This document shows positions 26,972 through 37,372 of a stretch of 64,000 bases of DNA, piece after piece (positions within the stretch are counted from its first letter, which is position 1; each line of letters begins with the position of its first letter). The translations under genes were made by a program, and so were the position numbers. The stretch is from assembly GCF_000174415.1 (NCBI RefSeq), contig NZ_ACJM01000006.1, positions 62,001 to 126,000 of the forward strand. Direction: 5' to 3'. The notes under the pieces are model-generated. The model saw nothing but the letters and a program-made list of their open reading frames with translations. It did no database searches and was not told the DNA's origin. Source of the stretch: Dethiobacter alkaliphilus AHT 1. Lineage in GTDB: Bacteria; Bacillota; Dethiobacteria; Dethiobacterales; Dethiobacteraceae.

Positions 26972-28270
26972 TTAGAATCCTGACACCCTGCATCCCAGTT
27001 CTTGCAGCGTATCCCAGAAGTTCGGGTAGGAAATAGCCACGCTTTCCGGCTCCTCTACCGTAACCGCCCCTTGTGCGGCCAAAGCCGCCACACAAAGGGA
27101 CATGGCAATGCGATGATCCCCGCGGCTGTGGGCGATAGCGCCACTTAGTGGCCGTCCACCTTCCACCACAAATCCATCCTCTGTGGCAGTTACCGCCGCC
27201 CCCAGCTTGTCGAATTCTTCTACCACCGCAGCAATCCGGTCGGTCTCTTTTACCTTCAATTCCGCCGCATCGCGGACCACCGTCTTGCCCTTGGCAAACA
27301 TGGCCGCCACCGCCAGCACCGGCAGCTCATCTATCAGCCGCGGCACAATATCACCGCCGATTTCCACTCCTTGCAGCTCTTTAGCCCGCACGCGGATATC
27401 GGCCACCGGTTCACCGCTTTCCACCCGCTCGTTAACCAGCTCCAGGTCGGCACCCATATCTTTTAGTACCTCCAGCACACCGGTACGGGTGGGATTGACG
27501 CCCACGTTCTTCACCAGCAAATCGGAGCCGGGCACAATGCTTGCCGCAACCAGAAAAAAGGCGGCAGAAGAGATATCACCGGGCACCCGGACGGTCTGTC
27601 CCTGCAGCTTGGGCTTACCATGAACCCGCACCGTATTGCCGTCTACCTCTACCTCGGCACCAAAAGCCGCCAGCATCCGCTCCGAATGGTCGCGGCTTTT
27701 CTCCGGTTCGGTCACCGCCGTTACCCCGTCGGCAAAAAGACCCGCCAACAGCACCGCAGATTTCACCTGGGCACTGGCCACCGGCGAATTATAATGAATG
27801 GGGCGCAAACGTCCGTGCAGCACAGAAAGGGGCAGCAGCTTACCATCGTCTCTGCCTAAAATCTCCGCCCCCATCTGCTTTAGCGGCTTGGTCACCCGGC
27901 CCATGGGGCGTTTGCGCAGCGAAGAATCCCCGGTCATCACCGAGTAAAAGGGCTGACCTGCCAGCACGCCTAAAAGCAGCCTGGCGGTAGTTCCCGAATT
28001 ACCGCAATCCAAAATATCCTCCGGCTCCCGTAGGCCCTCCAGGCCCACACCATTAACGGTAACATCTGAGCCGTTTACCTGCACCGGCACACCCAGCTTC
28101 TGCATGCAGCTTACGGTGGAAAGACAGTCTTCCCCGGTTAAAAACCCGGAAATCCTGGTTTCCCCGTTGGCCAGAGACCCCAGAAGCACCGCCCGGTGGG
28201 AAACCGACTTATCTCCGGGGACTGTAATCTCTCCCGTTAACGGCCCCGCTCCCTCAATGGTAACACTCAT
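26972..28270 (-). CDS. aroA: 5-enolpyruvylshikimate-3-phosphate synthase
   Basis: Sixth shikimate step, transfer of enolpyruvate from PEP to shikimate 3-phosphate. The 432 aa have [37 protein letters not shown] (PEP site; Gly retained in the NSGTT segment), [12 protein letters not shown] and [15 protein letters not shown], and end with [16 protein letters not shown]. Two bases after tyrA; last gene of a three-gene aromatic operon. Confidence 0.97.
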
Positions 28271-28272
28271 CT

Positions 28273-29373
28273 CTAGCCCTCCTGTAGTTCAGTACGATAG
28301 CCGTGCTTTTTCAAAACGCCTTCGGCCAGCCGTAAACTATCCTCTGTAATAAAGCCTAACCGAAGCGGCCCGCCTTCTTCTTCCCGGACCCGCAACAGTT
28401 CAATCTCAGCAATATTAATGCCGGCATCACCCAACAGGCCCGCCACTTCACCGATAACACCGGTCTTATCCGGCACATACACAAACAAATTATACACCGT
28501 GGGCAGAATCCCTTTGCCGCGGCCGGGCACCTGACGCCTAAAATCCCGGGCCCGCTCAAAGTGCTCCAAAAGGCCTGTGCCGTCACCTGACGCCACCAAA
28601 TCCCGCACCTCTGTCAGCTCCTTAATGTAGGTATCCATCAAATCTGTAATATGCTCCTGATTTGTCAAACAGATATCCCTCCACATCTGCGGGCTGCCCA
28701 TGGCCACCCGGGTAGTATCGCGAAAGCCACTGGCTGCCAGAGTCATAATCCGTTCCCGGTCCTCATCATTGGCCGCCACCGTCTCCGCCAGAGCAGAGGC
28801 CGCCATATGCGGCAAATGAGACACAGAGGCCACCACCCGGTCGTGCTGCCCTGCGTCCATCTTAACAGGTACCGCACCCAACTTTTCCACCAAAGTGGCA
28901 ACCCGGTCGCCCTGACTGTCACCGGCACCGTAAGTTAGCACATAAACCGCATTTTCAAACAGGTTTTCATCCAGTGCTTCCACACCGTCTTTTTCCGAAC
29001 CGGCCATGGGGTGCCCACCTACAAAGGTAACACTCCCCGGCAGTACTTCTGCCGCTTTATCCATCACCATGGCTTTGGTACTGCTCACATCGGTAACCAC
29101 AGCCCCGCCCTTTAACAGGGATGCCAACTGCGGCAAAAGTTCCAGAACTGCCATCACCGGCGCCGCCAACACCACCAAGTCGGCATGGGCTACTCCCTCT
29201 TTTAAGGTAGCGGCGGTCTCTGTCACAGCGCCTAACTCCAATGCTTTATCTGCGCTGGCAGGATCAATGCCCACCACGTCTTTTACCAGGCCGCGCCCCA
29301 GCATGGCCCGGCCCAGGGAGCCTCCCACCATGCCCACGCCCACCAGGGCCGCACGCTCAAAGATAAACCCCAT
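28273..29373 (-). CDS. tyrA: Prephenate dehydrogenase with C-terminal ACT domain
   Basis: NAD-dependent oxidation of prephenate to 4-hydroxyphenylpyruvate, committing flux to tyrosine. 366 aa: Rossmann motif [16 protein letters not shown], catalytic-region [18 protein letters not shown] and [15 protein letters not shown] with the active-site His, then an ACT domain (about 295-366; [20 protein letters not shown]) that probably binds tyrosine. Stop and start codons overlap with aroF by one base. Confidence 0.95.
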
Positions 29374-30398
29374 TAATCCACCTTCTTCAGCCGCCGCCCC
29401 AGCACCCGGGCCACCTTATCCAGATCCTCGGTCAACGCTTCAAATTTCTCCACCGTCAAAGACTGCGCCCCGTCACAGAGAGCTTCCTCAGGCCGGGGAT
29501 GGACTTCCACCATCAACCCGTCGGCACCGGCGGCCACCGCCGCCCGGCTCATGGACGGTACCCAGCGCCAGTTGCCCGTACCGTGACTGGGATCCACAAT
29601 CACCGGCAGATGGGTTAAATGCTTTACCACCGGAATAGCACTTAAATCCAAAGTATTTCTGGTAGCCGTCTCAAAGGTACGGATACCCCGCTCACATAAA
29701 ATCACTTTACGGTTCCCGCCGGAAGCAATATATTCCGCCGCCATCAGCCACTCTTCAATGGTGGCCGACAAGCCCCGCTTAAGCAATATGGGCTTATCCA
29801 GCTTACCCAACTCCCGCAGCATGTAGAAATTCTGCATATTGCGGGTTCCCACCTGGATAATATCGGCGTATTCCGCCACCACACCCACGGTGTGCTGATC
29901 CATCACTTCCGTGACAATGGGCAGGCCTGTCTTTTCCCGTACCCGGGCCAAGATCTTTAGTCCTTCTTCCTCCAGACCCTGAAAAGAGTACGGCGAGGTC
30001 CGCGGCTTAAAGGCTCCACCGCGCAGAATCTGTGCCCCGGCAGCTTTTACGCCCTCCGCCGACTCCAATAGCTGCTCTTCACTCTCCACTGCGCAGGGGC
30101 CGGCCATTACCACCACTTCATCGGCACCGATGGTACAGTTGCCCACATTAAAAGAAGTACTCTGCTCCTGAAACTCACGGCTCACCAACTTAAAAGGCTT
30201 GGTAATGGGCAGCACTTTCTCCACAAAGGGCAGTGCATCCAAGGCCAACTCCCGTACTATCTTCTCATCGCCGATGGCGCCAATAATAGTTTTAAACTCA
30301 CCCACCGAAAGATGGGTACCCAAACCTGCTTTTACCAAACGGTCCACCACCTGTTGAACCTGATCTTCTTTTACACCTGTTTCCATTACAATAATCAT
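29373..30398 (-). CDS. aroF: 3-deoxy-7-phosphoheptulonate synthase (type I-beta, with N-terminal regulatory domain)
   Basis: Condenses PEP and erythrose 4-phosphate, the entry to the shikimate pathway. 341 aa: an N-terminal ferredoxin-like regulatory domain (about 1-70, [19 protein letters not shown]) and a catalytic barrel with [65 protein letters not shown] and [12 protein letters not shown]. The layout matches the Thermotoga-type enzyme that is inhibited by Tyr/Phe. Preceded by a T-box and by a tyrosine-rich short ORF. Confidence 0.96.
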
Positions 30399-30463
30399 GG
30401 TTACATTTCCTCCTCAAATTTACAGACCAAAGCCTGTATTTCCTATTTTTCCAAACCAACCCA

Positions 30464-30523
30464 CTAATTACTCACAACACCTGTACATTTCAGTTTGTTT
30501 GGATAATAATAGTCGGCATCCAT
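30464..30523 (-). CDS. Putative tyrosine-rich leader peptide upstream of aroF
   Basis: A 19-codon ORF, MDADYYYPNKLKCTGVVSN, with AGGTGG six to nine bases before the ATG. It has three consecutive TAT tyrosine codons and lies between the T-box terminator and aroF, an aromatic-amino-acid gene, which is the layout of an attenuation leader. Downstream, TACAG-GCTTTGGT-CTGTA can form a small hairpin before the aroF ribosome site, and the leader itself contains another TACAG that could compete for CTGTA. I see no U-tract, so any control would be translational. Not a recognised leader family. Confidence 0.45.
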   Translation of the reverse strand: MDADYYYPNKLKCTGVVSN

Positions 30524-30556
30524 GTAACCACCACCTAAATTTGCTTTAATAAAAAC

Positions 30557-30817
30557 AAAAAACCGCCCCTGTAAGGGACGGATTCTATCCGCGGTACCAC
30601 CCAATTTGGCCTAATAAAAGGCCCGCTTAAAAAGGCACGTCCTCTGTCAGGATTATGCCCCTTCCCTTTTAACGGCGGGAACCCGTCGGAGCCTACTAAA
30701 CTTCGGTCCGCCGCTCAAGGGGGTAATTTCAACACGGCCCGGATACCGGTTCGCAGCTACCACCGGCTCTCTGAGATCCATCTGCCCTGCCTACTGTTTC
30801 CCTGTCATCGCGTTATT
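30557..30817 (-). promoter_or_regulatory. T-box riboswitch controlling aroF-tyrA-aroA
   Basis: Reading leftward: stem I start GATGACAGGGAAACAGTA (the AGTA of the loop-E motif), the distal stem AGAGAGCCGGTGGTAGCTGC, the specifier side TTGAAATTACCC (GAA of loop E), the T-box GGGTGGTACCGCGG (complement of 30589-30602) and a terminator CCGTCCC-loop-GGGGCGG followed by six T. Uncharged tRNA would pair with the specifier and T-box and prevent termination. The specifier codon is uncertain; see findings. Confidence 0.92.
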
Positions 30818-30823
30818 AAAACA

Positions 30824-30852
30824 ATTCTATCGACTTCACCCGGTCCTGTCAA
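30824..30852 (-). promoter_or_regulatory. Promoter of the T-box-aroF operon
   Basis: TTGACA (30847-30852), 17-base spacer, TAGAAT (30824-30829). Places the transcript start near 30817, just ahead of the first T-box helix. Confidence 0.85.
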
Positions 30853-30883
30853 GCTTTTTTTAGACAGGAGACCCTGCTTAAAA

Positions 30884-30913
30884 ACGCCCGCCTGTTTTTT
30901 ATCAGGCGGGCGT
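30884..30913 (-). terminator. Terminator of asd-lysC
   Basis: Eleven-base perfect arms ACGCCCGCCTG and CAGGCGGGCGT, followed on the minus strand by TTTTT. Confidence 0.92.
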
Positions 30914-30931
30914 CAGTATTTTTGTTAGTTA

Positions 30932-32191
30932 TTAGGCCAGTACGCGTTCGTCGTCTCCTGGAGGTGCAGAAAGGCGGAAATGATCGTGCAGGATACACAG
31001 CGCCTCGGACAAGTCGCTTTCGGGAATAAGTAGCGAAATGGTAATGTTGGAATCTCCGGTCTGCAGGATACGAATACTCTTTTCGTTTAGGGCTTTAATG
31101 ACCCGCGCCATTACACCGGGCAGGTTGCGCATACCCAGTCCCACCACAGAAACCTTGGCACAGCCGGAAGTAATCTTATAGTCCACACCCAGCTTCTTTA
31201 AGGTGGCTTCTGCCTGCAGTTGTTTTTCTTCTTCAATGGTAAAGTTCTTGCGTTCCGGGAAAATGGAAATCATATCAATGGAGATATCAGACTCCGCCAG
31301 CCGGTCAAACATGGCCAATTCCAGATCCGCATCGTCGGCACCCATATCCACCGTCACCTGAGCCAGGCCCGGAGTATGGGCAATCCCGGTAATAACATGG
31401 GAGTCACGCTGGCCAAAGCGGCCTTCCCCCATATAATTGCTTTCGCTGCCGATCATGGTGCCGTCGCCGCTCTCAGACAGGTGCTTTACCACCAAAGCCA
31501 CGTTATGATGCATCGCCACTTCCACCGCCCGGGGGTGAATGACCTTGGCCCCTTCATAAGCCAGCTGACACACTTCATTGTAGGTGATGTTATCAATGAT
31601 GCGAGCATCGGAGACCAGCTTGGGGTCCGCCGTCATAATACCGCACACATCGGTGTAGATCTCAACCCGGTCGGCACCCAGGCCGGCGCCCAGAATCACC
31701 GCACTGGTGTCGCTTCCACCGCGGCCTAAAGTGTTTAGCTCGCCTTCATGGCTCATGCCCTGGAAACCGGTTACCACCACAACTTCATCGTTTCGCAGAT
31801 GAGCCTGCAAACGCTCCGGATTAAATTCGATCACCTGAGCATTGCCGTAGTTACCGTCGGTAACCATCCCCGCCTGACCACCGGTCAGCGCCAAAGAGGG
31901 AATATCGTTGGCACACAGGGTAGAGGACATCACCACAGAAGAAATAATCTCCCCGCAACCCATAATCAAATCCATATCCCTCAGCGACTGCTCCCCGCAG
32001 CCGCAGTTAGAAACCATTAAATCCTTAAGCGTATCGGTGGCATAGGGATCACCGGAGCGACCCATGGCCGAAACCACCACCACCGGCTTATAACCTTCAG
32101 CCCGGGCTTCTTGAACTCTTTTTACCACTTCTTCACGCAGAGCAGGATTGGCAACAGATGTGCCGCCAAACTTCTGTACAACTATCTTCAC
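30932..32191 (-). CDS. lysC: Aspartate kinase with two ACT domains
   Basis: Phosphorylates aspartate, first step to lysine, threonine and methionine. 419 aa: VQKFGGTSVANPALREEV, ALTGGQAGMVTDGNYGNAQV, GRGGSDTSAVILGAGLGADR and YTDVCGIMTADPKLV in the kinase domain (1-240), then ACT domains at about 265-340 and 345-410 for feedback control. Follows asd by 11 bp. Unlike lysA it has no riboswitch directly in front. Confidence 0.96.
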   Translation of the reverse strand: MKIVVQKFGGTSVANPALREEVVKRVQEARAEGYKPVVVVSAMGRSGDPYATDTLKDLMVSNCGCGEQSLRDMDLIMGCGEIISSVVMSSTLCANDIPSLALTGGQAGMVTDGNYGNAQVIEFNPERLQAHLRNDEVVVVTGFQGMSHEGELNTLGRGGSDTSAVILGAGLGADRVEIYTDVCGIMTADPKLVSDARIIDNITYNEVCQLAYEGAKVIHPRAVEVAMHHNVALVVKHLSESGDGTMIGSESNYMGEGRFGQRDSHVITGIAHTPGLAQVTVDMGADDADLELAMFDRLAESDISIDMISIFPERKNFTIEEEKQLQAEATLKKLGVDYKITSGCAKVSVVGLGMRNLPGVMARVIKALNEKSIRILQTGDSNITISLLIPESDLSEALCILHDHFRLSAPPGDDERVLA

Positions 32192-37110: not shown

Positions 37111-37372
37111 GCCGACAGGTTTGCTGTCGGCGACTAAGCCTGGACGCATACCCCAACACCCTTGTTGTGAGATAGTTCTCCACCGCATGTCAGGGTACAT
37201 ACGGTGACAGTCCGGCAGTTATTCACTGACGGCCCAGCTCAATGCCCTGAGGAAGGCACCGGCTTCGGCGGTGTCCCCTTTCTTACCTGATCATCAATCT
37301 CCCCGATTTCCCAGATAATACTCTTGGATCCCCGCGCCTCTACCCCACCCACGTTGGTGAGGTATGTGATTA
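37111..37372 (-). promoter_or_regulatory. Lysine riboswitch (L box) upstream of lysA
   Basis: Reading leftward the conserved lysine-aptamer blocks appear in order: GTAGAGGCGCGG, CCAAGAGTA, GAAAGGGGACACCGCCGAAG, GGGCCGTCAGTGAATAACTG, GGACTGTCA and GGAGAACTATCTC. The expression platform ends in GCCGACAG-CAAAC-CTGTCGGC (37111-37131) followed by ATTTCTATTTTG. Lysine binding should turn off lysA-dapF-dapL. Confidence 0.93.

Follow-up and report, generated by a model that had tools for sequence, protein, structure and literature searches.

A conserved tyrosine-codon leader between a tyrosine T-box and aroF in Dethiobacter alkaliphilus AHT 1: a putative second reading of one tRNA

Closest described systems

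The closest described system is the rtpA/yczA (anti-TRAP) locus of Bacillus subtilis, where a T-box is combined with tRNA-dependent ribosome stalling on a leader peptide, both for tryptophan (Chen and Yanofsky 2003, 2004, as cited in PMC11255114). Anti-TRAP resembles the locus studied here, which lies in a window of 64,000 nucleotides (the whole stretch of DNA analysed) from D. alkaliphilus AHT 1, in that a T-box is followed by a short open reading frame (ORF) with a Shine-Dalgarno (SD) site and codons for the same amino acid before the regulated gene, and in that one tRNA would be sensed transcriptionally and then translationally. The two differ in the amino acid (Trp there; Tyr here, and Leu or Phe in relatives) and in what is regulated, a regulator gene there and a biosynthetic operon and transporter genes here. 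The leaders described here also share an M-[DE]-x-D start, and the stop codon of the window leader lies 65 nt before the aroF ATG, as the first-pass annotation of this DNA had stated, whereas in B. subtilis the leader stop lies near the SD of the gene, so that a finishing ribosome masks it. An arrangement of the latter kind is found in one relative (G002), whose leader stops 7 nt before the aroF ATG, on the aroF ribosome site, and leaders of other relatives overlap the gene start. Two anti-TRAP-type features are found in the window, namely an SD-bearing short ORF between terminator and gene and three TAT codons in combination with the specifier UAC. Likened on its anatomy, the window locus may work like anti-TRAP.

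Other systems share single elements with this locus. In mgtQ of Salmonella, Asp2 and Glu5 seem to make the ribosome unstable and to free a ribosome site downstream (PMC8092293), and early acidic pairs pause ribosomes in Escherichia coli, as in mgtL with EttA (PMC11282234). Like the leaders described here, mgtQ and mgtL are very short ORFs with early acidic residues, their aborted or slow translation freeing a ribosome site or altering attenuation, but they sense Mg or other cues and involve neither a cognate tRNA nor a T-box. The uORFC-13-1 motif upstream of aroF in Acholeplasma contains Phe codons, adjoins a terminator and is a proposed transcription attenuator (PMC8632094); it shares with the window an upstream ORF with aromatic codons before aroF and differs in its position beside the terminator and in having no T-box. 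Ribosome-mediated transcription attenuators of the trp, his and phe type likewise possess a leader peptide with cognate codons; here, in contrast, no terminator separates the leader from aroF. In the literature searched, anti-TRAP, for Trp, is the sole described case that we could find of a T-box with a cognate leader peptide behind it, and a T-box-coupled Tyr, Leu or Phe leader was not found in that literature, many subscription papers lying outside its scope. The first-pass statement that no described leader with this sequence was known agrees with the same search, and a precedent of the same kind exists in B. subtilis rtpA.

Anatomy of the tyrosine leader in the window

On the minus strand, a promoter-like site is followed by the T-box, its terminator, the mini-ORF, the 65-nt gap and the aroF-tyrA-aroA genes, the part upstream of aroF extending over 30398-30852 (Table 1). 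The T-box, with its core present and its terminator placed at 30581-30563, lies well above the gathering score of 93 of the covariance model, and its specifier UAC (Tyr) agrees with the function of the operon, the tyrosine branch. The mini-ORF reads ATG GAT GCC GAC TAT TAT TAT ... TAG (30523-30464) and comprises 19 codons. The peptide is identical to that given by the first-pass annotation, and the ribosome site and the three adjacent TAT codons that it reported were recovered, as codons 5-7 in the latter case. The anti-SD duplex predicted for aroF (-11.5 kcal/mol) is close to that of the mini-ORF, and across the leaders compared the predicted strength of leader sites is about that of gene sites. 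A terminator scan found no terminator-like site between the mini-ORF and aroF (30464 to 30398), and transcription attenuation downstream of the leader was rejected on that ground; a second layer of control would therefore act on translation or on message stability. Two further RNA elements were observed. A lysine riboswitch (119.2 bits, window positions 37165-37350, minus strand) lies upstream of the lysine-pathway genes of the window, and elsewhere in the same genome a Phe T-box before a chorismate-mutase-type gene (L166, G000:C5:108985-109252) is followed about 145 nt further on by a second T-box core and terminator, with a small non-cognate ORF, MTKDGWNK, between the two cores.

Table 1 Features of the aroF locus in the window (all on the minus strand)
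Feature	Position	Strand	Evidence or remark
Promoter-like site TTGACA-17-TAGAAT, upstream of the T-box	30824..30852	-	11/12 consensus matches; consensus match only
T-box leader RNA	30571..30817	-	RF00230, 135.3 bits, E 6e-30
Specifier codon UAC (Tyr)	30723..30725	-	read from ...GAAAU-UAC-CCCCUU-GAGC; position matches aligned family members
T-box intrinsic terminator and U run	30556..30585	-	sole minus-strand terminator in 30380-30950
Mini-ORF SD AGGUGGUGG	30528..30536	-	predicted anti-SD duplex -10.6 kcal/mol
Leader-start arm GUGGUUACAU of predicted long-range helix	30522..30531	-	duplex -15.5 kcal/mol; region z-score -3.1
Mini-ORF, putative leader peptide MDADYYYPNKLKCTGVVSN	30464..30523	-	reading frame and homologues in relatives
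Adjacent Tyr codons 5-7 (TAT TAT TAT), putatively regulatory	30503..30511	-	sequence and cognate residue counts in 15 leaders
Hairpin UACAGGC-UUUG-GUCUGUA ahead of the aroF ribosome site	30421..30438	-	-8.3 kcal/mol
aroF SD GAGGAGG	30409..30415	-	sequence and anti-SD duplex
aroF-start arm AUGUAACCAU of predicted long-range helix, covering part of the AUG	30397..30406	-	not conserved in relatives
aroF, DAHP synthase	29373..30398	-	NF006421, 515.5 bits
tyrA, prephenate dehydrogenase	28273..29373	-	best match NF005107, below curated cut-off
aroA, 3-phosphoshikimate 1-carboxyvinyltransferase	26972..28270	-	TIGR01356, 448.6 bits

The leader start is predicted to pair with the aroF start over 10 bp. 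The predicted fold of the region is better than that of all 200 shuffles, and 99% of shuffled leader starts leave the aroF start easier to open (p 0.01). This pairing was significant in only one of the eight loci tested, that of the window, and did not exceed shuffles in the seven others; it therefore fails as a general rule and is best regarded as a possibility specific to the window. The two TACAG sequences and the one CTGTA that the first-pass annotation had noted before the aroF ribosome site are present. The switch that it built on their re-pairing was not upheld, since it is absent from all seven further leader regions that were compared; as a general mechanism it was rejected, being confined to this window. 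Within the window the 10-bp pairing is much stronger.

Conservation and agreement with the T-box specifier

We compared the regions upstream of aroF in the genome of the window (G000), in 19 further genomes of the family and in some others. A homologous mini-ORF occupies the same place, between a Tyr T-box and aroF, in five other genera of the family, reading MDVDYDYCRY... in G002, MEPDYAYTAPQY... in G003, MESDYAYRGKPAGY... with a TTG start in G005 and MESDYAYKTLMKVRL in G011, and being decayed in G013 (MDIADYFL..., with one Tyr codon left and about 500 nt inserted behind the T-box). Conservation is limited to the start site plus the first seven codons, M-[DE]-x-D-Y-x-Y; for Tyr at positions 5 and 7 the codon is always TAT. 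Pairwise identity peaks at the SD and codons 1-7, where it reaches 73%, and is at the chance level of 22% over codons 8-14. The third positions of codons 2 and 4 vary, which argues for selection on the peptide or the codons and not on the RNA alone. The first-pass annotation had proposed that frameshifts or lost Tyr codons be looked for in relatives; where the leader is kept, its frame and Tyr codons are kept, and Leu and Phe T-boxes have Leu and Phe leaders, while many family members have lost the leader. In the aroF protein tree it is present in the early branches G005, G011, G003 and G002, and also in G000 and G013; a clade of ten, G012 and the close relatives of G013 lack it. This distribution fits presence in the family ancestor with several later losses and is compatible with other histories. 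By eye, the first half of the leader seems to be deleted in G012 relative to its sister G002. The leader is missing in more than half of the family and at several Phe, Leu and Ile T-boxes of the transporter arrays described below, and is thus dispensable.

Some leaderless members of the family (L010, L014, L016, L018) contain repeats resembling ACGGTAGG in the stretch from the T-box terminator to aroF, and in one genus (L005, L002, L003) a repeat-like insert separates T-box and aroF, the leader there being decayed or truncated. Other DYxY matches in family genomes (L111, L112, L114, L115, L118) were rejected as lying within unrelated ORFs.

A T-box-anchored pattern search over 398 genomes of the phylum gave four matches (G000, G002, G458, G397) from two classes, all directly behind UAC (Tyr) T-boxes. 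The reversed-pattern control gave five chance matches, so the raw count is no evidence by itself; by our own estimate, about 0.4 chance matches would be expected at any T-box and well below 0.1 at Tyr T-boxes. We judge the matches to lie beyond chance on their T-box context and conserved codons, and not on their count. A GGTG-anchored search of the phylum also found the match in G458, together with one in G264 that was set aside as lying inside a gene and looking like chance. A search for a Leu version across the phylum gave no match, its spacing limit also missing the known Leu case in G397. In the other class, leaders behind UAC T-boxes precede tyrosine phenol-lyase (TPL)-like genes (G458, G158) and genes for ABC-transporter binding proteins (G397, G439, G476). 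The leader of G458, MDVDYPY..., lies before a TPL/tryptophanase-family gene and in frame with it, and that of G158, where the protein is 81% identical, reads DVDYPYPY from an apparent CTG start and runs out of frame across the gene start. In G397, MESDYYYNNN... is 44 codons long and covers, in a different frame, both the ribosome site and the start of the binding-protein gene, MEPDYAYKT... in G439 is arranged likewise, and the Tyr leader of G476 is MEEGYYY-stop; in G002, G158, G397, G439 and G476 the leader overlaps or adjoins the gene start. The TPL/tryptophanase-family genes under Tyr T-boxes (L123 and L183, in G458 and G158) are an odd occurrence for a degradative enzyme. Genes of this family are usually catabolic.

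The rows of paralogous peptide-type ABC binding-protein genes in G397 (C1, L222), G439 (C151, L223) and G476 (C23, L224) allow leader and specifier to be compared among paralogs, as most of the genes have their own T-box; these T-boxes differ in specificity (Tyr, Phe, Leu, Val, Ile) and are often followed by another antiterminator/terminator module. Behind UAC (Tyr) T-boxes the leaders are MESDYYY, MEPDYAY and MEEGYYY, behind a UUC (Phe) T-box MELPFF, and behind CUC (Leu) T-boxes MESDLGLKL and MESGLALSDL, the last following CUC and AUC T-boxes in tandem; MEKYLINVF..., behind a GUC (Val) T-box, is doubtful. No leader is present at one UUC and two AUC T-boxes of the arrays, and in G439 a long stretch resembling an insert comes after a CUC T-box. 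With the seven array leaders, none of the 420 label orders except the observed one gives as many cognate residues, and for all 15 leaders 8 of 100,000 shuffles (8e-5) reach the observed match. Such shuffles remove relatedness only partly. When each specificity is represented by a single leader, the observed order ranks first of 24. The cognate residue stands at position 5 in 13 of the 15 leaders and at position 7 in 12, and 13 contain two or three cognate residues within codons 2-10, the aroF leader of G013 and the Val case containing one. Position 2 is D or E in all 15 leaders and position 4 is D in ten.

At about 80 other T-boxes, mostly before tRNA-synthetase genes, in G000, G002, G397, G439, G476, G158, G458 and G196, no cognate leader was found, and the leader was accordingly rejected as a general T-box feature of these genomes. 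It is instead linked to particular genes of biosynthesis and transport, and its codons are for the amino acid that the T-box specifies. Separately, a Trp T-box before a trpB-like gene (L268, L283) is followed by an SD-bearing ORF of five codons, MLYHW-stop in G397 and MFVNT-stop in G439, of which one only contains a Trp codon.

These comparisons bear on three other explanations. That the mini-ORF is a chance ORF with no function could be argued from its 19 codons, from its absence in more than half of the family and from the matches to the reversed pattern, but motif and frame are kept over genera and two classes between flanks at chance identity, and the codons covary with the specifier; we regard this explanation as very improbable. 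We also give little credence to a plain translated upstream ORF or small peptide that sets basal translation of aroF and has no Tyr-specific role: good SD sites and frequent loss would suit it, yet it would not predict cognate codons that track the T-box specifier. The joint retention of acidic residues 2 and 4 with the Tyr residues would be expected if the nascent chain arrested the ribosome by sensing free tyrosine or a pathway intermediate with its own residues and not through codon decoding. However, Leu or Phe takes the place of Tyr when the specificity of the T-box changes, and seven residues only are conserved, whereas arrest peptides usually need a longer stretch in the tunnel, which makes arrest of this kind a distinctly improbable explanation.

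Proposed second reading of tRNA-Tyr

The ORF, its conservation and the tracking of the T-box specifier by its codons are real; its translation, the stalling and the effect on aroF we infer. On this evidence the mini-ORF is probably a regulatory leader peptide that provides a second, translational reading of tRNA-Tyr after the T-box. The first-pass annotation had suggested two layers, a T-box and then ribosome stalling on a peptide. The conserved Tyr-coding leader between T-box and aroF gives good comparative support to two layers responding to the same tRNA, and stalling would be the manner in which the second one works.

In T-boxes generally, uncharged cognate tRNA lets transcription past the terminator, and uncharged tRNA-Tyr would thus give read-through as the first layer. 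As the second, a ribosome would start on the leader and soon reach Tyr codons 5-7. With Tyr-tRNA scarce it would wait or drop off there, leaving the aroF start open, and with Tyr-tRNA plentiful it would pass the Tyr codons and aroF translation would be held down. In the window the holding step may consist in the 10-bp helix between leader start and aroF start, masked by a ribosome on codons 5-7, which, given the usual footprint, would cover most of the leader-side arm. In several relatives the holding step may instead be a leader ribosome that runs over the ribosome site of the gene or stops on it: the leader of G002 stops on the aroF ribosome site and most of those in G158, G397, G439 and G476 extend across the gene start, so a ribosome that had read through the cognate codons would interfere with initiation. 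The sign would be the same with either anatomy, scarce cognate tRNA favouring the gene. Acidic residues at positions 2 and 4 may cause a ribosome early in the leader to pause or to leave the message, as in mgtQ and mgtL, a link to drop-off that is an idea drawn by analogy and not a result.

Several observations count against this two-sensor reading. The stop codons of five aroF leaders are 39-65 nt short of the gene, so a terminating ribosome would not cover the SD of the gene; the leader of G458 is in frame with its gene, that of G005 starts with TTG and that of G158 perhaps with CTG, and position 4 is not always acidic. The dispensability of the leader, the single Tyr codon left in G013 and the restriction of significant long-range pairing to the genome of the window also count against it. 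The leader ribosome could also act on mRNA stability and not on aroF initiation: parked, as the first ribosome after antitermination, on scarce Tyr codons near the 5' part of the message, it would shield that part from 5' decay, and more message would survive starvation. Protection from 5' decay by a ribosome has been proposed for stalled erm leaders. Stabilisation would suit a leader whose start lies a few tens of nt past the terminator, whose length and spacing from the gene are highly variable, and which has no conserved pairing to the gene start. We nevertheless consider it unlikely, as leaders overlapping the gene start at several loci suggest action on initiation and no processing site is known here.

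Returning to the leader as a second reading of the T-box's own tRNA, we tentatively propose a modular family of T-box-coupled leaders, M-[DE]-x-D-X-x-X: their constant acidic start would prime ribosome drop-off, and an exchangeable codon pair X would match the specifier. As the module spreads among genes for biosynthesis and transport, both sensors would switch specificity (Tyr, Leu, Phe) in step. That versions for Tyr, Leu and Phe occur in two other classes, with codons tracking the specifier in paralogs, suggests that sensing one tRNA twice is a design open to reuse. The question why cells check one tRNA twice becomes testable, as does the question whether the early acidic residues are a built-in drop-off signal. 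Natural matched pairs of the same module with different codons are available for experiments, and the specificity of the transporters would be predictable from two independent signals.
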